The position numbers and the translations under genes were made by a program. The notes under the pieces are model-generated. The model was not told the DNA's origin, searched no databases, and saw only the letters and a program-made list of their open reading frames with translations. A stretch of 32,376 nucleotides of DNA from a virus: the IMG/VR virus record IMGVR_UViG_3300034093_000979, positions 1-32,376 of that record; one strand, 5' to 3'. Below, in pieces: positions 10,893-30,014 of the stretch; the first letter of the stretch is position 1, and each line of letters starts with the position of its first letter.

Positions 10893-12386
10893 CTAGCTAA
10901 TCGTCTTTTGGCTGAGTGTGATGACCACGAATTCAGCAGGGTATTCGAGCGCAACACCGACCTCAATGTTGACCTCACCATTGGCGATGTCTTGAGCGAT
11001 GTTGTTCTCTGCGTCACACTTCACGAAGTAAGCGTCGGCGGGGTTTGCTCCGCGGAGCCCTCCCTGGTTGCGGTATTCGTTAAGGAATACACCCAGCACA
11101 GTTCGGACCTGCTTCCACAGAACTTCGTTGTTGTTCTCAAACACAGCGAACTGCGTCAAGTCGGTGATGCGCTTGCGCAGGTAGTTGAGCGAACGACGCA
11201 TTGCTACGTACTTGTTCGCGGTACCGTCCTGAAGCAGCGTGCGTGCTCCGTAGACAACCACGCCTGCACCAGGGATGCTGCGGATAGCGTTTACGGGGTA
11301 CTGGTTGGAGTTCAAGGCGTCAAGGTTAGCGGACGTCAAGATAACTTCGGGAGCGATAACTCCTACCATGCTTGCGCGAACACCTGCGGGAGACTTGAAC
11401 GGGCCAGCCTGACGGTCCGTTGACAAGATGATTCCTGCAACTGAACCTGACGGACCAATCTTTCGAAGCGCGGAAGCGCTACGTCCCAGAGGGTCTTGGA
11501 TAAAGATGTTCGGGTAGTACACTGCTGCGTACGAAGTACCGACGCCACCGTTCAAGCCAGCGGCGTACGACAGGGCCGAAGCGTTGCTCAGGCTCGGTGC
11601 GGTATCTATTACCAAGAACGAGTTGTTGACTTTGACCCAATCAATGAGCTCGTCGTATACGTCCGTGAGAGCTAGACCAGCCGCATCGGGAGCGAACATA
11701 ACCAGTGGTCGGTCAAGGTCCGAGTAGTTAGCCACGGCGGTACCAAAGTCGGCAGCCGCAATAGCTCCACCGTTCGCGCCAGACGTAAGTGGGAGGAGCG
11801 TCGTGTTAGGCGTTCCAGCGGGGCTTGCAACCGAGGTGTAGGAAATGTACTCCGAAAGCGCGAGGACTGTTCCAGCAAAATCCGCGGAAGTCTGGTCTGT
11901 GAATACAACGTTTTGCCACAGTTCCAGGACAATATCATCGGCTGAACCTACCGCGCCACCAACTTCTTGGTAGACAGTAACGTTGAAGTAGCCTGCGGTT
12001 GCCGAGCTCGACACCTGGACGCGAAGCTTGTTTCCGTCTGTTCCCAAGTTTTTTGCCGTAAAAGTACCCATTTGAACGGGAGTTGCAGCGGTGTTGTTGA
12101 GGATGACCGCAGCACGAACAGCGTCGCTTTTAAGGACACGTCGAACGTAGAGTTCTGTTCCGCCGTTCTGAAAGAACTGCGAGACACTGAATACTGCGGG
12201 GAAGGAGGTGTTGTAGCCTCCGAACTTCTTAGAGAAGTCGTACCACGATGTCACAAGAGTGACCGTGGTGGGCCCCTTTTCAAACGGTGCGATTACGGCA
12301 CCAGCTGCGTTAGCTGTTCCGAAAGACGCGATTTGAGAGGGGAGAGTGCGTTCACTGATGAAAACGCCAGGACGACCAATGGTCAT
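10893..12386 (-). CDS. Contractile tail sheath protein
   Basis: A 497-aa protein with AAGGAG five bases before the ATG at 12386. The start TIGRPGVFISERTLPS is typical of sheath subunits. YDFSKKFGGYNTSFPAVFSVSQFFQNGGTELYVRRV is split across residues 49-83 and matches the conserved N-terminal part. SIPGAGVVVYGARTL, NYLRKRITDLTQFAVFENNN and LWKQVRTVLGVFL form the conserved C-terminal region that makes the sheath mesh. This gene is the clearest evidence that the phage is a myovirus. The central part (about 100-250) is more variable and contains an Ala/Gly/Thr-rich insertion, probably on the outer face. The tube gene follows after ten bases. Confidence 0.95.
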   Translation of the reverse strand: MTIGRPGVFISERTLPSQIASFGTANAAGAVIAPFEKGPTTVTLVTSWYDFSKKFGGYNTSFPAVFSVSQFFQNGGTELYVRRVLKSDAVRAAVILNNTAATPVQMGTFTAKNLGTDGNKLRVQVSSSATAGYFNVTVYQEVGGAVGSADDIVLELWQNVVFTDQTSADFAGTVLALSEYISYTSVASPAGTPNTTLLPLTSGANGGAIAAADFGTAVANYSDLDRPLVMFAPDAAGLALTDVYDELIDWVKVNNSFLVIDTAPSLSNASALSYAAGLNGGVGTSYAAVYYPNIFIQDPLGRSASALRKIGPSGSVAGIILSTDRQAGPFKSPAGVRASMVGVIAPEVILTSANLDALNSNQYPVNAIRSIPGAGVVVYGARTLLQDGTANKYVAMRRSLNYLRKRITDLTQFAVFENNNEVLWKQVRTVLGVFLNEYRNQGGLRGANPADAYFVKCDAENNIAQDIANGEVNIEVGVALEYPAEFVVITLSQKTIS

Positions 12387-12427: not shown

Positions 12428-13078
12428 TTACGAAATAGTGTCAGATAGTGTTCTGGTGAATGTTGTATCCCCAGGACGACCGTTTACGAATGTTTGTTGA
12501 GTGTTGATGTTGACGCTGAGCGTCTTGTAAAGTTCTACAAGAGCTCCCTGTACGACTTCCGAGGAAACTCGTACAGTAAAAGAGTTGATGAAGGTTCGCT
12601 TCTGATTTTCGGTCAGGTCGCGCTTTGCAACATCAAGCACATCTAAACGACGAACAGTTCCGTCGTCAAGTTCAAGGATGCCCGAACGGATTGGGAGACG
12701 CTCAGCCAAGAGCTGTCCAACCAACGCGCGGTCGTGGCGAGGGTGACGTGCATACGTCGTAATCTGGTAGTCAAGGCTAACGGGAATCGGCAAGTCAATT
12801 TCAAACGCCTGCGTCTCAGGGTCAAATCCTGCCGACAATCTACTTTCAAGATAGACTGGCGAAGCTTTGCCGCGCATCTCACGCTCAGGGTCACGACTAA
12901 TGTCAATCATGTCGATGGTGATGTACGGGTAATTCTGTGCACGAATTTCTTGGTCAGGTTGACCAAACCAAACTCCGACCTGCCGAGGAGTATCCGAACC
13001 GTCAGCTTTTTGGTCGTAGACAAGCATGCCCTGCATCTTTTCGCGCAGCGCCTTGTCCTCAGAAAGAAGAAATGCCAT
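12428..13078 (-). CDS. Neck / tail-completion protein
   Basis: A 216-aa protein whose ATG at 13078 overlaps the upstream stop (TAATG). It lies directly before the sheath gene, where tail terminator and neck genes usually sit. Visible segments are VWFGQPDQEIRAQNYPYITIDMI, read in two halves as QPDQEIRAQNYPY and ITIDMIDI, then PIPVSLDYQITTYARHPRHDR, LLAERLPIRSG and FTVRVSSEVVQG. The mixed alpha/beta pattern is consistent with a tail terminator that caps the tube before joining to the head. I cannot name a specific family with certainty. The ribosome site of the sheath gene follows, with a small inverted repeat (GTAAC/GTTAC) over the stop codon. Confidence 0.55.
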   Translation of the reverse strand: MAFLLSEDKALREKMQGMLVYDQKADGSDTPRQVGVWFGQPDQEIRAQNYPYITIDMIDISRDPEREMRGKASPVYLESRLSAGFDPETQAFEIDLPIPVSLDYQITTYARHPRHDRALVGQLLAERLPIRSGILELDDGTVRRLDVLDVAKRDLTENQKRTFINSFTVRVSSEVVQGALVELYKTLSVNINTQQTFVNGRPGDTTFTRTLSDTIS

Positions 13079-13389
13079 TAGTCGTTATCTCCCATGTGCT
13101 GAACAAAACGTTCTCCGAGGAACTTAGACATCGTGTCGGGAGTCGTGTCGTACTTACGGATGGTTGCCTTGGGGGTGTTGTCGGGGTCGCCATACTCGGC
13201 AATCCACGCCTGGTCCCCTACGGATGCGGGGAATCGCACGTTAAACTGCCCATCCTTATGGACAACGCGAAGCTTACGGACAACCTTGTCTTCCCAACCT
13301 TGCGCGCGTGCTCGCTCACGAAGGTCGGCAGTCATAAACAGCGCGGTATCTGTCGTCGCGCGTTCGTGTGCCCTATCGAGGTTGTACAT
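13078..13389 (-). CDS. Small head-tail connector-type protein
   Basis: The start is placed at the ATG at 13389, giving 103 aa, because the frame upstream is shared with the preceding gene and has no ribosome site. The first 17 bases overlap that gene. The protein begins YNLDRAHERATTDTAL, has a helix TADLRERARAQGWED, then a beta pair VRKLRVVHKDGQFNVRFP and DQAWIAEYGDPDNTP, and ends with a helix. It is neither membranous nor repetitive. Context, between small capsid-side genes and the neck protein, suggests a connector component. No family is recognised. Confidence 0.55.
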   Translation of the reverse strand: MYNLDRAHERATTDTALFMTADLRERARAQGWEDKVVRKLRVVHKDGQFNVRFPASVGDQAWIAEYGDPDNTPKATIRKYDTTPDTMSKFLGERFVQHMGDND

Positions 13390-13594
13390 CTGGCTTACCT
13401 GTGTGGGGTTTGACTGAAGTGAATGAGCCTCGAACGTAACCTGCGGCGTATTGACCAAGCATCGCTTCCATGCGATTGTTGGGTCTAAAGCCAACCGATG
13501 TGGCACCGCGGACGAACTCTTCACGTTCGTCAAAGCCATAGTAGTCGTTTGCACGCTCCCACCATGGTTGCCACTTATTCTTCGGAGCATTCAT
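13373..13594 (-). CDS. Small protein of unknown function before the neck genes
   Basis: A 73-aa protein starting at the ATG at 13594, beginning NAPKNKWQPWWERAND and continuing with YYGFDEREEFVRG, which is helical and rich in aromatic residues and arginine. No strong ribosome site is visible, although GGGATTTT lies upstream. The next gene starts inside its end. It is conserved-looking rather than random: codon use and the aromatic pattern fit a real product, and the gene is tightly linked to the connector genes. A structural or assembly role is a guess from position only. Confidence 0.55.
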   Translation of the reverse strand: MNAPKNKWQPWWERANDYYGFDEREEFVRGATSVGFRPNNRMEAMLGQYAAGYVRGSFTSVKPHTGKPDVQPR

Positions 13595-13702
13595 TTCGCA
13601 AAATCCCTATACAGGTACGCAGGTCCAGCCTAAGCTGGGTAGGCACCGCACGGTAACCTACTCTTCTAGAATAGGTAACTTACGAGGAAATGTCTGGGTG
13701 AA
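13595..13702. other. Short intergenic gap with imperfect hairpins
   Basis: About 108 bases without a gene, the largest gap inside the tail and small-basic-protein region. It holds a CCAGC-CTAA-GCTGG stem-loop (13624-13637) and an imperfect inverted repeat, GTAACCTA with TAGGTAAC (13652-13677). It may separate transcription of the small basic genes from the tail genes. No clear promoter or uridine-rich terminator was seen on the minus strand. Confidence 0.4.
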
Positions 13703-13924
13703 CTACTTGCGCTTAGCCTTGATGCCCTTGATAATCTTGGCATCAATCTTCTTGTCCTGCTGCATAGTTTTGGGCTTTGCCTTGGCAGCGTGCTTCTTGT
13801 CGGCTGCCTCAAACTTCTTCTTCTCCGCTGCAGACATGCCCTTCATCATAGCGGCGTCTTTCTTCTTGTCCTTGGCTTCGGTGTACTTGCCCTTTTCGTA
13901 GGACGGGGTCTTCTTTGCTACCAT
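13703..13924 (-). CDS. Very lysine-rich small protein (73 aa)
   Basis: The start at the ATG at 13924 is supported by AAAGAG about nine bases upstream, and it lies one base after the stop of the previous gene. About one third of its residues are lysine (24 of 73). SAAEKKKFEAADKKHAAKAK is a charged helix and the end is IKGIKAKRK. There is no hydrophobic core, so it is likely an extended helix or disordered. Strong positive charge suggests DNA or RNA binding, possibly inside the virion, but this is inference. It is the last of a run of five basic small genes. Confidence 0.65.
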   Translation of the reverse strand: MVAKKTPSYEKGKYTEAKDKKKDAAMMKGMSAAEKKKFEAADKKHAAKAKPKTMQQDKKIDAKIIKGIKAKRK

Positions 13925-13925
13925 G

Positions 13926-14171
13926 TTATTTACTCTTTCTGTAGTTAGCGGTTTTCTTTGCGACCTTCTTAGGCTGAGCAACAAATTGCTCACCCTTTTT
14001 ATTGCCCTTTGCTTTCGCGGCGTTTGTCGCCCGCTTTTCAGCGGGAGTCAGGGCTGCCCACGCTTTTTCTGGAAGATATCTCTTCTTACCTTTAGACGGC
14101 TTACCGTCTGAGGTAGTCCACTTTTCTTTAGTCCATTTATCTAAAGACTTCTGGGGTGCTGCCTTAGCCAT
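13926..14171 (-). CDS. Small basic protein with WTKEKW and YLPEKAWAAL motifs
   Basis: An 81-aa protein whose ATG at 14171 overlaps the upstream stop (TAATG). Motifs SLDKWTKEKWTTSDGKPSKG, KRYLPEKAWAALTPAEKRAT and KKGEQFVAQPKK resemble a small domain of unknown function known from phages and large DNA viruses (I believe DUF5872-like, from memory and uncertain). It is highly basic and has no transmembrane segment. Placed with four other basic genes after an HNH-like gene, it could bind nucleic acid. Its function is unknown. Confidence 0.65.
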   Translation of the reverse strand: MAKAAPQKSLDKWTKEKWTTSDGKPSKGKKRYLPEKAWAALTPAEKRATNAAKAKGNKKGEQFVAQPKKVAKKTANYRKSK

Positions 14172-14380
14172 TAGTTCTTGTAACCCCCGCCAGCCTTCTT
14201 GTATTCAGAGGCTAAGAGTTGTGCTTTGCGGGCAGACCATTCTCCTGGGTCGCCGCCTTTACTCCCAGCTTTAATCCTATTGAAGATAGTCTTGCGCAAA
14301 CCAGGCTTAGTGTAGTTTCCCGCAGAGTTTACCGTCGACTTAGCGGCGGGCTTCTTGGGGGCTGGCTTCTTGGCTGCCAT
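14171..14380 (-). CDS. Small basic protein with GEWSARKAQLLASEYKKAGGGY motif
   Basis: A 69-aa protein whose start overlaps the previous stop (TAATG at 14380). The N-terminus is a lysine/alanine/proline tail (KKPAPKKPAAKS) similar to histone H1 tails. The folded part is KPGLRKTIFNRIKAGSKGG followed by DPGEWSARKAQLLASEYKK. I recognise this second part as a recurring small motif in viral and environmental proteins but cannot give a function. The arrangement of disordered basic tail plus small helical motif fits nucleic-acid binding or packaging. This is inference. Confidence 0.65.
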   Translation of the reverse strand: MAAKKPAPKKPAAKSTVNSAGNYTKPGLRKTIFNRIKAGSKGGDPGEWSARKAQLLASEYKKAGGGYKN

Positions 14381-14688
14381 TACTTCTTCTTTGCCTTCAA
14401 GCGCTTTGACATTGCGGCAGCCTTACTCTTGGCATCTGCCTTTGAGGATGCTCCCCATGCTTGAAGGGAAAGAAGGAGACGAGTCGGCTCACCGTTAGGC
14501 TTGCGCTCGGGACCAGGCATTCCGCCCATTCGAGCAAGGAATGATGCCCGACGAGGATTATCGCCAGACTTTACAGGAGACTTAAGGTCAGAGCCAGGGT
14601 TAGCTTTCTCGTAGGACTTACGTCCCTTTTCGTTAAGCCCACCCTTGGGATTCTTGCCCGCCTTCTTTTGCCATGCCTCACTTGCCAT
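14380..14688 (-). CDS. Small basic protein with WGASSKADAKSKAAAMSKR motif
   Basis: The start is set at the ATG at 14688 (102 aa). An in-frame GTG at 14706 is possible but lacks a well-spaced ribosome site. Motifs are SEAWQKKAGKNPKGGLNEKG, then PRRASFLARMGGMPGPE and a C-terminal LSLQAWGASSKADAKSK. Proteins of this type (DUF6321-like as I recall, uncertain) occur in many environmental phages near structural genes. The pattern of glycine turns with lysine and arginine suggests a basic, partly disordered protein. Overlap of its stop with the next start points to co-translation. Function unknown. Confidence 0.65.
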   Translation of the reverse strand: MASEAWQKKAGKNPKGGLNEKGRKSYEKANPGSDLKSPVKSGDNPRRASFLARMGGMPGPERKPNGEPTRLLLSLQAWGASSKADAKSKAAAMSKRLKAKKK

Positions 14689-14720
14689 TGTCTTTGCCCC
14701 GTCCACAGGTGCAATTTCCG

Positions 14721-14849
14721 TTACACATTCTTGCTCCTTGCTTTTCCTAATGAGTTCTTCTTACGAGAGGGAAGCGACTGGTCGCGCTTCATGTTTGGGT
14801 TTTTAACCACAACCTTTTTAGGGTCTACAGGCTTACGCTTTGTTGGCAT
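14721..14849 (-). CDS. Tiny basic protein (42 aa)
   Basis: A short gene whose ATG at 14849 overlaps the stop of the HNH-like gene (TAATG) and which ends with TAA at 14721. It encodes 42 residues beginning MPTKRKPVDPKKVVVKN and ending in LGKARSKNV, with about one third Lys or Arg. It lies in the same coupled series as its basic neighbours and fills what would otherwise be a 130-base gap. Being so short, it could be a chance ORF, but the coupling and composition match the adjacent genes. Confidence 0.55.
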   Translation of the reverse strand: MPTKRKPVDPKKVVVKNPNMKRDQSLPSRKKNSLGKARSKNV

Positions 14850-15175
14850 TACTTCTTCCCCGCTCGTCGTTTGTTTTCTTTAGCAACATTGCTGCTCTTA
14901 GATATTGCCCTAAGATTACCAGACGAGTTATTGCTTTTGTTGTTATCTTTGTGGTCAACTTCGGTCTTTCGTGGAAGCTTTCCATTCTTAGATTCGTACT
15001 TGGCACGAGCCTCATTCTGAGAGGTTGTTTTCCATCCGTCCTTGGTTTTAACTTTGGTAACCATGATGGAACGTCCGCCATTAGCATCCGAGCCCTTGTA
15101 GGGACCGAATGTCTTTTTTGTGCCGACAGCTACTTTCTTTGTAGCTTTCTGCTGAGCTTTTGATTTAAAAGGCAT
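14849..15175 (-). CDS. Small HNH-like nuclease-type protein
   Basis: A 108-aa protein whose ATG at 15175 overlaps the stop of the beta-helix gene (TAATG). The start [11 protein letters not shown] is common on small phage structural-region proteins. Residues 72-98 carry an HNH/His-Me-finger pattern: D74-H75 in EVDHKDNN, N83, N87-L88 in SGNLRA and N96 in SSNVAKEN. The usual upstream cysteine pairs are absent. It may act in DNA packaging or be a homing-type remnant, but activity is not shown. It heads the run of small basic genes and is itself strongly basic. Confidence 0.6.
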   Translation of the reverse strand: MPFKSKAQQKATKKVAVGTKKTFGPYKGSDANGGRSIMVTKVKTKDGWKTTSQNEARAKYESKNGKLPRKTEVDHKDNNKSNNSSGNLRAISKSSNVAKENKRRAGKK

Positions 15176-16197
15176 TACGCTATTCCAAGGGTAGTTACAG
15201 TGCCCGAAGAGCCGCGGTACTTTAGAGCACCCGCCTCAACGTAGATGATTCCTCCACCAGAAAGGTTAGCCGCGGGGGCGGTACCATTTTGCATAAGAAG
15301 TCGGTCTGCGTTAATGTACTGGAAATAGTCGATAGAGCCCGCAGAACCACCAGTCCCCGACAAACCAACTAAAGTTGACGTTGGCTTATCAAAAACGCAG
15401 TTGATAATTGAATAGAAGCCCGACAAAGAAACTGGAGCAACGGTAGTCAGTGCTGAAGTCAAGAACTGGGAGTTAGCCAGGGTAACAACACTTGACGCGG
15501 AGGATGTAACCGCATTAGTTACAGCAGCCACAACTATAGAGTCCACGATACTCAGAGTACCCGCCGTTACTGCTGGAGCAACGCAAGACATAGCACTCTT
15601 AATAATAACGTTTGCACCAGCGTTATTTACTGTTACAAAATTAGGGTTGCCGTCATTGACGGTCACAAGCCCAGAGCCAGTAACGTTTAGAGCAGTGCCC
15701 ACATCACAGTTGTGAATGTCGGTAAAAGTTGCGTTCCCACTTTTAGTCAAAGTTCCAGTGATATTGCTGTTAATAATGTTTGGAACTCCAACGCCCGTTC
15801 CAGCAGTTATTGTAAGGTTTGTCATAGTTAAGCCAGCAATGGTACAGCCAACAGATGTGCTAACTGTTCCAGAAATAGCGGTGTTACCGCCTAGGGGTTC
15901 ATACGTAGTCAGTACCGTGTACTGAGCAGTTATAGAGGGACTTTCAGTGTAGGTTCCTGGGTGGATAACGATTGTTCTACGATTTCCAGTAACTAACGTC
16001 AACGCTTTAGTGATAGTAGCAACAGGGTTTAGAATGTCACCATTACCCGTAGTGTTATTTCCGTCTACTTGGCTAACGTGGATTTCGTAGTCGTAACCAG
16101 TGAAGTTTGCACCAGGCTTTGTGTCTAGGTAATCCAGGGCAGTGTTGAGGACTGTTCCCCAGTTGTTCTGGTCAATAGTTGGTTTTACAAGTGGCAT
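15175..16197 (-). CDS. Fibre-like protein with right-handed beta-helix character
   Basis: A 340-aa protein starting at the ATG at 16197 with GGAAAG upstream. Residues 45-100 match the entry of pectate-lyase-like beta-helices on phage fibres: [20 protein letters not shown], then [16 protein letters not shown]. After this come many short repeats with N, T, V and G ([33 protein letters not shown]), consistent with helix rungs. The end ([21 protein letters not shown]) resembles fibre tips. No catalytic residues are evident, so a binding or decoration role is more likely than depolymerase activity. Its position between neck-type and HNH genes is unusual for a baseplate fibre. Confidence 0.65.
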
Positions 16198-24284: not shown

Positions 24285-24614
24285 CTAATCCTTTTTGTCT
24301 TGTTCATGTTTTCCGCCCTTTTCCATAGCTTTGGTCTTTTCAGACTTAGCCATGTGTTTGTGTTGTTCGTGTGCGTGCCTGTTCTTCATCAGTTTTGCAC
24401 GACGAGTTTCCTTGTTGTGTTCCGCAAACTGCCCACCGTGGTTGACATACTGGTCATGCACCCAGTGAGAAGCCGCTGGGTTTGGGTAGGTTTTGTACTT
24501 CATTCTTGCTTGGAGAACAATGAGCTTCCAAAGGCGAGGGTTCGTCGGAACGCGGTTCGAGTGACGAGTGTCTCCCGATGCGGCGTTTGCCGAGGCTCCT
24601 TGCACGAATCCCAT
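24285..24614 (-). CDS. Small basic His/Lys-rich protein between terminase and portal genes
   Basis: A 109-aa protein with AGGAG five bases before the ATG at 24614. Residues 20-65 look folded (RVPTNPRLWKLIVLQARMKY, HWVHDQYVNHGGQF). From about 65 the chain is a highly charged tail (KETRRAKLMKNRHAHEQHKH, KAMEKGGKHEQDKKD). Its place between terminase-linked genes and portal suggests a role in packaging or procapsid assembly, but no family is recognised. The region upstream carries a long inverted repeat (24631-24699). Confidence 0.6.
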   Translation of the reverse strand: MGFVQGASANAASGDTRHSNRVPTNPRLWKLIVLQARMKYKTYPNPAASHWVHDQYVNHGGQFAEHNKETRRAKLMKNRHAHEQHKHMAKSEKTKAMEKGGKHEQDKKD

Positions 24615-25186: not shown

Positions 25187-26776
25187 CTAAAAGAATGGGT
25201 TGTTTGATGCCTCAATGGTAGGCATAACTAGGTCAACCGTCATGGAGCAGGCGAGAGACAACGAGTCAACAAAGTCGTCGTGGGCGTGCGCCTCGTCGGG
25301 CGCTTCTACAACGAACTGGTTGCCTTTGTACTTGATTTCTGCGTCAGTCATCTGCTGCATGAACCGCTTCCAAACACGAAGGCGACGGGTCTTTGCGTGA
25401 GCGGGGTAGCCAAGCATACGGCGCTGCATAAGCGCTTGAAGATGCTTGTACCGAGTAGATTGTTCCTTTTGGCTTGATGTAAGAGGAACTACCTCAGCGC
25501 GAGGCATGAGGACCTTAAGTCGTTGGGCTACTGCGTCACCAACGCCGTTTGCATCGACTCCGATAGCAAGTACGTCGTAGTTACTGAGGAAGTTAACAAT
25601 CTGGAAGTACTGCTCTTCCCAGTCTTCACCTTGAATTTCAAGCCAATTAAGAACGCGGTGGTCGTAATAGCCAAACTCGTCGGGGCGGTCCCAGTCAACC
25701 CACACCACAGTTATCACTGTAGAGTCAAGTTTACGGGCAGGGTCAATACCCACCACCACTGGAGTCTGGTGCCATTGTTTTACCAGTTCCTGCGACGTAT
25801 CTCCGAGCTCATCCATAAGACCTTGGGTAACGAACATACCGCGGTCGAGCAACCACTTGCAGCTGTACGACATCTGGAACTCGTCAGAGTCCTCGCCAAT
25901 GCGCAGCATTTCCTTACGGATGAACTTCTTGTAGTTTTCGTTGACCTTAGCAACGTCTTTCCAGTCCCACTGGAAGTGGTTCTGCCGTGCCCCGCGGGAA
26001 GTGGCGCGCCGCTTGTTTAACTGAATTGCTTTGTAGAAGTTGTTCTTAGAAGTAGTGGGGGTTCCAGTTTTAATCATGGTTCCTGCGTAGTACGCAAGCA
26101 TGGGCGAGATTGACTTGGAAACAACAAAGTCATCAGCTTCCTGGCACTCGTCGATAACGATGACGTGGAAGGACTTTGACTCAATCTTTGCGCGGGGGTT
26201 TGCCGTCATCATGGTAAGAAACGAACCAAGGCGAGTAAGTCGGATGGTTCGAGTAACCCCACCTACACGCTTTGCTTGGTCGTCAATTTCAGGGTCACCC
26301 AGTACTTCGGTGGCTCGCTCAGAAGTCAACCTAGATACCGCTCGACTAAACAGGGTTTCTGCCTGCGATTCGGTGGGGGCAAACATGCCCACCCATAAAC
26401 CGTCTTTGAATTTGCCCAGAAGCTCGGGGTACAGCTTTGCGAGAAGAGGAAGGAGAATCATGAGCGCAGCAAGCGTGTCGGCTACTGTCTCCGTTTTTCC
26501 TGACTGACGGGATGCGAGTGCAGTAATTTCTTCGCCATCGTTGATGATTACGGACTCGATGATTCGTCGGCTTAGCGGAAGCTGGTAAGAGTGCAAGCTG
26601 TGACCCACCAGCATGGTCATAAACTGCTGAATCTTGTCTATTAGACGGTTGACAAATTCAGGAGATAGTTGGTCATCTTCTGGTTCCTCAAACTCATCGG
26701 CATCCTCGTCGTCAAAGTTTTCGAAGAACTCAGGAGTAATCTCCTCAAATCTGTCATCGTCATACTCAGAAGTCAT
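25187..26776 (-). CDS. terL: Terminase large subunit
   Basis: A 529-aa DNA-packaging ATPase and nuclease. The Walker A-type motif SRQSGKT is at 89-95, the Walker B motif VIVIDE at 205-210, and the coupling motif TGTPTT at 237-242. The RNase H-like nuclease has acidic residues D345 (VVGIDPAR), D408 (IGVDANG), and D500/D501/D504 near the end (HAHDDFVDSL). All expected catalytic residues are present. The first 40 residues are unusually acidic (DDEDADEFEEPEDD) and may be a regulatory tail. The start overlaps the previous small gene by 11 bases. The protein fills the capsid through the portal at 22539-24281. No separate small terminase is recognised nearby. Confidence 0.96.
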   Translation of the reverse strand: MTSEYDDDRFEEITPEFFENFDDEDADEFEEPEDDQLSPEFVNRLIDKIQQFMTMLVGHSLHSYQLPLSRRIIESVIINDGEEITALASRQSGKTETVADTLAALMILLPLLAKLYPELLGKFKDGLWVGMFAPTESQAETLFSRAVSRLTSERATEVLGDPEIDDQAKRVGGVTRTIRLTRLGSFLTMMTANPRAKIESKSFHVIVIDECQEADDFVVSKSISPMLAYYAGTMIKTGTPTTSKNNFYKAIQLNKRRATSRGARQNHFQWDWKDVAKVNENYKKFIRKEMLRIGEDSDEFQMSYSCKWLLDRGMFVTQGLMDELGDTSQELVKQWHQTPVVVGIDPARKLDSTVITVVWVDWDRPDEFGYYDHRVLNWLEIQGEDWEEQYFQIVNFLSNYDVLAIGVDANGVGDAVAQRLKVLMPRAEVVPLTSSQKEQSTRYKHLQALMQRRMLGYPAHAKTRRLRVWKRFMQQMTDAEIKYKGNQFVVEAPDEAHAHDDFVDSLSLACSMTVDLVMPTIEASNNPFF

Positions 26777-29150: not shown

Positions 29151-29424
29151 TATCTGTTACCTCTTCCGCTGTAGGCTCGTTTTCGTTAGAGTTCGAGTCT
29201 ACAACCTCCGCCTCTGGAGTGGAGTTGATAACAGTAGTTGTTTTTGACTTTTTGGCTGCTTTTGCTGCGGCGAGCTCTGTAGCGAGGCTTTCGTCGGTAG
29301 AAAGCGAGACCAGAAGAGGACGAACCGAACGCGGTGCGTCATCGGAGCAGTAGTAGATGTTCTGGACGTTGCTGATGCTGTAAACAAAGGTTGCATCATT
29401 GGCGCAGTTTGCACATTTAGTCAT
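29134..29424 (-). CDS. Small protein with N-terminal zinc-ribbon half (96 aa)
   Basis: The ATG overlaps the previous stop (TAATG). The first 30 residues carry C4/C7 (KCANCAND) and C26 (YYCSDD), like a treble-clef or zinc-ribbon segment in which the third ligand follows a beta hairpin. The rest is an acidic, serine-rich helix and tail (STDESLATELAAAKAAKKSK, NSNENEPTAEEVTDSEPNE). Function unknown; possibly a host-interaction or transcription-related factor. Confidence 0.6.
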   Translation of the reverse strand: MTKCANCANDATFVYSISNVQNIYYCSDDAPRSVRPLLVSLSTDESLATELAAAKAAKKSKTTTVINSTPEAEVVDSNSNENEPTAEEVTDSEPNE

Positions 29425-30014
29425 TACTTCATTCCTTGCTTGCTTCGTCGGGTCATTGCTGCGCGCTGTGAACCAGTTGCGCTGTTGTAGCCCTTGTGTT
29501 CTTTAGTTCCCGCTTCAAAAGGGTTTTTGGGGTGAGGGTTACGTGCGCTGTACTTTGTGGGCATGCGCGTTGTCGCGGGCGCTGCTGGCGCAGCGGCGGG
29601 AGTTGTTCTGGGCTGACGAGTACGGGGCTCTTTGAACTGCGTCATTGTTTTACCCGTTCCAAAGTCAATCTCTGTCCGAGCTACGCCGCTCTTTTTTGCC
29701 GCCATGTCTGCTTCAGACTTTAGCTCGCCAAACGTCGTTGCATTTTTTCGGGTTTGCTTACCCTCAGCCTTTACGACTTTAACCCGAGCTTTTCCCTCGT
29801 ATTTAATTCCAACAAGCTTGGCGGCCTCTTGAATCTTAGTCTTGTCCAGAGATAGCTGGCCCATAAATTGTTCGTGTGACATCTGCCGCCGACGCGCAAA
29901 GGCGTCGGCAACCTTTCCCATCCCGCTCTGCGCAGCTTCTCCAGCAGGATTGCTTTTTGAGGTCTGGTTCGTGCGGAACTCTCCGCTTGAACCCATGATT
30001 CCTGTTTCAGCCAT
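29424..30014 (-). CDS. Basic polar protein of unknown function (196 aa)
   Basis: Starts at the ATG at 30014, overlapping the upstream stop by eight bases. It has a helical section (SGMGKVADAFARRRQMSHEQ, LSLDKTKIQEAAKLVGIKYE) and a basic part rich in Lys, Arg, Pro and Ala (REPRT-like, TTPAAAPAAPATTRMP), with the end GYNSATGSQRAAMTRRSKQG. No domain is recognised. The composition suggests a partly disordered basic protein that could be in the virion or bind DNA. Confidence 0.55.
   Translation of the reverse strand: MAETGIMGSSGEFRTNQTSKSNPAGEAAQSGMGKVADAFARRRQMSHEQFMGQLSLDKTKIQEAAKLVGIKYEGKARVKVVKAEGKQTRKNATTFGELKSEADMAAKKSGVARTEIDFGTGKTMTQFKEPRTRQPRTTPAAAPAAPATTRMPTKYSARNPHPKNPFEAGTKEHKGYNSATGSQRAAMTRRSKQGMK

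Follow-up and report, generated by a model that had tools for sequence, protein, structure and literature searches.

Introduction

The internal head proteins IPI, IPII, and IPIII of phage T4 are small, virion-linked, and diverse between relatives. T4 DNA harbors approximately 1000 molecules of these proteins, whose lysines contact its phosphates, and the proteins form a diverse anti-restriction set (PMC3012670). They also speed packaging (PMC7697877), and a targeting sequence carries proteins into the T4 prohead. The six genes described here, g1 to g6, likewise encode small, basic proteins, and some relatives of g3 that share its DUF6321 domain have a targeting start of the T4 type (MKT[FY]..[FY]..E). 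The g1 to g6 proteins differ from the T4 proteins in that they have no targeting sequence, are more basic, and show no homology to them, and their genes form one co-oriented cassette that comprises up to 16 genes in relatives. Because they have no targeting sequence, we do not file them as T4 internal proteins.

Other described phages carry homologues of individual genes. g3 is a full-length member of the DUF6321 proteins (PHROG_4689, T4-GC_110-type cyanophage proteins) and has their GGLN and RRASF.ARM motifs, but it is a stand-alone 102-aa cassette gene, whereas in cyanomyoviruses DUF6321 is the C-terminal domain of 165- to 500-aa proteins. g4 and g5 are clear members of PHROG_17747 and PHROG_14910, found in HMO-2011-, CRP-, HTVC-, and MEP-type phages, and the pair has the same order there. 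However, those phages have the pair near the terminase or after capsid genes, while in this contractile-tailed phage the pair is located after tail-fibre-like and before neck/sheath genes. We report that g1 to g6 represent one form of a modular cassette of genes for small lysine-rich proteins, shuffled from phage to phage, in the virion-structure operon of aquatic tailed phages.

Results

Six consecutive basic genes lie upstream of the neck and sheath genes

The window, meaning the whole stretch of DNA that was analyzed (32,376 nucleotides), is a 32-kb virus fragment. Its minus strand carries six tightly packed ORFs at 13703-15175 (Table 1), whose coordinates and lengths match those given in a preliminary description of this DNA. 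That description called all six Lys/Arg-rich, which the net charges of +12 to +21 bear out. Among the 35 called genes of the window, only g1 to g6 have a net charge of >0.12 per residue, and all six are consecutive, the longest run possible (permutation p = 5e-6). Lysine content is 18 to 33% in g1 to g6 compared to 1 to 13% in all remaining called genes; the protein described earlier as about one third lysine is g6 (33%). The genes were also said to be mostly joined by TAATG, and one-base overlaps of this kind occur at beta-helix/g1, g1/g2, g3/g4, and g4/g5; the g2/g3 and g5/g6 junctions have no overlap.

Past the cassette, the gene order is n0, n1, n2, tail sheath, and tube. We call n2 "neck" from its position, and family searches with n2 gave no match. 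The longest-ORF start of n1 (13590; ORF 13078-13590, minus strand) overlaps the conserved n0, so the n1 start is probably much further downstream. Scans of the region for sigma-70 promoters and terminators found sites no more numerous than in shuffled sequence. Elsewhere on the minus strand, two genes of unassigned family are moderately basic at approximately +0.10 per residue (24285-24614 and 29424-30014), and one of the two sits between TerL and the portal gene. The gene at 24285-24614 (k24) is present in 9 loci; its motifs are similar to those of g4, and it was rejected as a g4 homologue (hhalign probability 0.4%).

Table 1. Features of the cassette and its flanks in the window
Feature	Coordinates	Strand	Length	Net charge	Basis or remark
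Beta-helix-like protein, upstream flank	15175-16197	-	340 aa		Weak tail-protein match, PHROG_4577 tail (5.6e-4)
g1, HNH_3 protein	14849-15175	-	108 aa	+21	Pfam PF13392
g2, basic protein	14721-14849	-	42 aa	+12	27 loci by iterated HMM
g3, DUF6321 protein	14380-14688	-	102 aa	+17	Pfam PF19846, PHROG_4689
g4	14171-14380	-	69 aa	+13	PHROG_17747 (1.6e-34)
g5, near-fixed g4 partner	13926-14171	-	81 aa	+18	PHROG_14910 (1.2e-35)
g6, 33% lysine	13703-13924	-	73 aa	+16	112 loci by iterated HMM
Conserved structured RNA, between g6 and n0	13595-13702	-	108 nt		Covariation; not part of the protein set
n0, flank marker directly downstream of cassette	13373-13594	-	73 aa		W.PWWE......REEF.RG
n2, downstream flank, "neck" from position only	12428-13078	-			Synteny; tail sheath next
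Tail sheath	10893-12386				PF17482 (5.9e-9)

The six ORFs are real genes

In comparison with a near relative (L295), dN/dS was 0.018 for g1, 0.029 for g3, 0.053 for g4, and 0.093 for g5, and the g6 protein was identical (dN/dS 0, dS 0.42); the same comparison gave 0.143 for the sheath and 0.098 for the tube. The preliminary description had staked its reading on these ORFs being conserved in relatives. Relatives were found for all six, and g1, g3, g4, g5, and g6 are under purifying selection. Given that all six have relatives and that dN/dS in these five genes (0 to 0.093) does not exceed that of the sheath or tube, g1 to g6 are real genes. The g3 protein is 92 to 97% identical in three further loci (L002, L307, and L005), with synonymous sites that are saturated or nearly so, and the sheath, where present in these loci, is 54 to 55% identical, a pattern that indicates constraint rather than recent transfer.

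g1 has an HNH_3 active site, and g3 to g5 belong to named families

g1 matches Pfam PF13392 (HNH_3) at 3.4e-11 with 43 bits (curated cutoff 24.8). In an alignment with I-HmuI (1u3e) over residues 72-103, D74, H75, N87, and N96 of g1 each have their exact counterpart; this D, H, N, N quartet comprises the catalytic residues of I-HmuI. Previously described as an HNH-like leader with D-H and N residues in place, g1 can be upgraded to a protein with a complete HNH_3 active-site quartet. The D-H pair is kept in 46 of 48 g1-family representatives, and the exact spacing is kept in 41. The half-domain is all that g1 and I-HmuI have in common: the basic region at the N terminus (FGPYKGS.ANGGR) is particular to g1, which lies in no intron. 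Considered as a possible homing endonuclease, g1 occupies the same slot across the clade but is missing from some cassettes. HNH packaging proteins of other phages are linked to the terminase, whereas TerL of the window (25187-26776) is approximately 10 kb away from g1.

g3 aligns with PF19846 over its full length (positions 1-72 of 72; 1.8e-24, 86.6 bits, cutoff 28.5) and with PHROG_4689 at 1.4e-33. Its start is probably the ATG at 14688 rather than the GTG at 14706, since relatives begin with MASEAW. A literature search found no paper naming DUF6321. g4 has the core KAGSKGGxPGEWSARKAQLLAxEYKKAGGGY, with 13 invariant columns among 33 sequences. The histone-tail-like start noted earlier (KKPAPKKPAAKS) is not a feature of the g4 family; it is a variable N-terminal tail restricted to the window and its closest relatives. 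For g2 and g6, Pfam and PHROG searches returned no named family, and their loci were collected with HMMs iterated over the contigs of the collected loci. Relatives of g2 carry CSCGxCPACK..KNPNMKR.QSL..RKKNSLGKA, of which the Cys motif is lost in the window. g6 is usually the final strongly basic gene of a cassette.

Structure prediction gave an all-helical AlphaFold (AF2) model for g3 (pLDDT 87) and a helical, medium-confidence model for a g4-g5 fusion (pLDDT 76). Fold searches with both found no PDB match at E ≤ 0.001, PDB profile searches with g3 and g4 found nothing significant, and neither Pfam nor PDB linked g3, g4, or g5 to histones, HU, or protamines. Pfam showed no link of g4 or g5 to DUF5872, and the literature on that family amounted to one algal-virus gene list.

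The cassette is modular in related contractile-tail loci

We scanned IMG/VR with the window proteins and, together with other collected records, assembled 375 loci. In all loci that have the contractile-tail gene order, the set sits between tail-fibre/beta-helix genes and n1-n2-sheath, and its internal order varies. Using a simple gene caller, we found 4 to 16 small genes in this slot (median 9 genes, median 68 aa) among 57 distinct related regions. Of the 497 proteins of these cassettes, 89% carry a net positive charge, which is above +0.12 per residue in 387. They form approximately 100 protein clusters, 61 of them singletons, counts that are approximate because the clustering merges g5 with g6. 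All frequencies carry a bias, since these proteins served as bait in the search for loci. The g2 family (F13) occurs in 11 of the 57 cassettes, and a second HNH family of the zinc type (F15) occurs in 9, near n0 (e.g., L128:5243-5618). g4 and g5 form a near-fixed pair: g5 comes directly after g4 in 133 of 152 distinct loci, and the two are fused in 7. An alignment that combined the fused proteins with rows containing g4 or g5 alone was misaligned and was not used. A search for homology among the other cassette families was negative, with nothing beyond the g4 and g5 profiles, which have fused sequences in common.

A conserved RNA element separates the cassette from n0

The structured RNA between g6 and n0 recurs elsewhere (for example, at L250:3202-3310, L102:11609-11716, and L183:11213-11320) and is conserved while the adjoining cassette is reshuffled. 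A covariance model detected one copy at the same place in approximately 40 clade contigs and no copy in the tested loci without the clade gene order. In a set of 29 distinct sequences, canonical pairs fill 95% of the pair cells, two-sided changes occur in 12 of 17 pairs, and the covariation score is 0.439 versus 0.231 in shuffles (0/500), with the qualification that this alignment was fitted to the model, which favors structure; an 11-sequence MAFFT alignment gives the same picture. A hairpin-loop pseudoknot is probable, as 116 of 120 cells can form it. The outer helix has as its 3' strand the Shine-Dalgarno sequence of n0, which stands 6 to 10 nt before the start codon in 27 of 30 loci, and the n0 homologue likewise starts where the element stops in 27 of 30. 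In most copies, a terminator-like hairpin with a T run comes first; in the window it has decayed. Rfam has no match for the element, which is likely an unannotated translational cis-regulator of the neck/tail module.

The same families recur in virion modules of other phages

Among 140 distinct loci without the clade tail genes, g4/g5 lie near the major head protein in 53, near tail-fibre-like genes in 39, near TerL in approximately 30 (several unrelated TerL types), and near a head-tail adaptor in 10. F12 (PHROG_7595), a further cassette family, is also present within PHROG_220 ("minor head protein and DNA pilot") and within CL131 ORF012, where the portal and MuF domains flank it; ORF012 has been detected in virions of CL131 (PMC6293099). 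In 84,980 cellular genomes, DUF6321 was found at 66 loci, which are probably largely viral sequence because most are in metagenome bins, often on short contigs.

The loci near terminase genes bring up a role in packaging. HNH proteins beside the terminase in other phages help make or trim packaging ends; g1 might do the same, and the basic proteins might engage the DNA at either the terminase or the portal without needing to stay in the virion. TerL directly follows g4-g5 in 12 loci, g3-g4-g5 stand immediately before TerL in Methylophilales phage MEP402, and the DUF6321 protein of cyanomyoviruses is encoded between TerS and TerL, all of which would suit such accessories. However, the clade cassette lies approximately 10 kb from TerL, beside tail and neck genes, and outside the clade g4/g5 are located after the major head protein in more loci than at TerL. 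We consider a packaging role improbable.

Some DUF6321 relatives have virion or prohead-targeting evidence

S-CREM2 gp137, which matches DUF6321 at 3.5e-10, was detected in CsCl-purified virions by 4 unique peptides (4.1% coverage) that may lie outside the DUF6321 domain, and its lysine-rich neighbor gp136 was detected by 8 unique peptides (PMC10665884). S-SZBM1 gp192, a stronger DUF6321 match (5.9e-21), is absent from the 30-protein virion list of that phage (PMC9146016). S-SZBM1 gp190 was detected in virions, and its gene lies between TerS and TerL; it turned out to be distinct from the DUF6321 protein. The homologue in S-SM1 is annotated just as "hypothetical."

gp192 begins with MKTFKQYITEA, compared with MKTYQEFIAEA in T4 ipII and ipIII and MKTFKEF in ipI. 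T4-type starts occur in 5 of 83 DUF6321 ORFs and 16 of 1027 other ORFs (p = 0.016), an enrichment based on a small count; of the latter, 15 belong to one neighboring family that also looks targeted, and the lower value of p = 1e-5 depends on setting that family aside. None of g1 to g6 has a T4-type targeting sequence, as they start with MPFKSK, MPTKRK, MASEAW, MAAKKP, MAKAAP, and MVAKKT.

Two further proteins of S-SZBM1 (L378) were also recorded. gp191 represents a conserved gene beside DUF6321, also seen in L379, L384, L396, and L405, which is a candidate for another internal head protein of cyanophages because of its T4-type capsid-targeting start (MKSFKQFLSESVNISGDFNG...). gp194 (L378:8253-10376, minus strand) is a 707-aa lysine-rich protein encoded between TerS and TerL, with a C-terminal S-adenosylmethionine lyase domain (Pfam 6.8e-8) that would fit anti-restriction cargo.

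That gp192 was not seen in virions would suit proteins that are not virion parts and instead bind nucleic acids late inside the cell, whether in host takeover or in RNA-binding regulation of the late operon, with their genes in a permissive insertion slot. The variable content and order of the cassette resemble an accessory-gene hot spot, and a basic protein could naturally target the structured RNA at its 3' end. Against this explanation, the families stay in virion modules across several unrelated phage types, constraint on them is equal to or above that on the sheath, and S-CREM2 gp137 was seen in virions; we regard this explanation as unlikely.

Discussion

The preliminary description left a choice among DNA-condensing or packaging factors, internal virion proteins, and an uncharacterized nucleic-acid-acting set. 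The evidence from relatives favors virion- and DNA-associated proteins, and the histone-tail idea finds no support across the g4 family. Virion- and DNA-associated proteins are favored by the linkage to genes for the head, for packaging, and for the tail in unrelated phages, by a cassette domain inside portal/MuF proteins, by the T4-type targeting sequence on some DUF6321 relatives, and by one virion-proteome detection (S-CREM2), although the other cyanophage proteome missed its DUF6321 protein. Judging from these relatives, the cassette proteins are most likely inside the virion with the DNA; their tail-gene neighborhood would equally fit a role in the tail.

Our best explanation, in which we place about even confidence, is that the cassette encodes DNA-associated internal head proteins that work like the T4 internal proteins without being members of that family. 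The proteins would be produced late and in concert with the capsid and tail proteins, through the translationally coupled start/stop junctions. Their charge would let them bind or coat DNA, and, like the T4 internal proteins, they would come to lie in the head along with the genome, neutralize the packaged DNA there, and enter the next cell together with it. In that cell, some might act on the arriving DNA or protect it, and g1 is predicted from its sequence to be a DNA-cutting or nicking member of this cargo. Because the g3 and g4-g5 folds match nothing solved, it is charge that points to DNA binding; from charge and the analogy to T4 we infer binding, neutralization, and delivery.

It is very unlikely that the cassette is instead a by-product of mobility, with g1 and the second HNH family acting as homing-type enzymes whose cuts shuffle their small neighbors: the I-HmuI-type quartet of g1 is intact, the cassette order is shuffled, and cassettes with any HNH family are larger (median 10 genes versus 7, p = 1e-4), but this size difference is confounded by lineage, 30 of the 57 cassettes have no HNH family yet are shuffled, and the strong selection on the basic proteins argues that they are not junk.

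Returning to internal head proteins, a broader and more tentative proposal, which we think somewhat less probable than not, is that unrelated aquatic tailed phages draw on a common pool of small lysine-rich domain families that constitute virion-delivered nucleoprotein cargo. The pool would hold dozens of families, reshuffled either as genes of their own or as fusions with portal and terminase-linked proteins, and the cargo would coat the packaged genome and act in the newly infected cell; the window would be one draw from it, with a nuclease member. Members of these families turn up in cyano-, pelagi-, roseo-, and freshwater phages, and nearly all are annotated as "unknown function." Should they prove to be head cargo, a large part of aquatic phage genomes that now lacks annotation could be interpreted, and condensing of DNA and protection of incoming DNA would be testable with a defined gene set.
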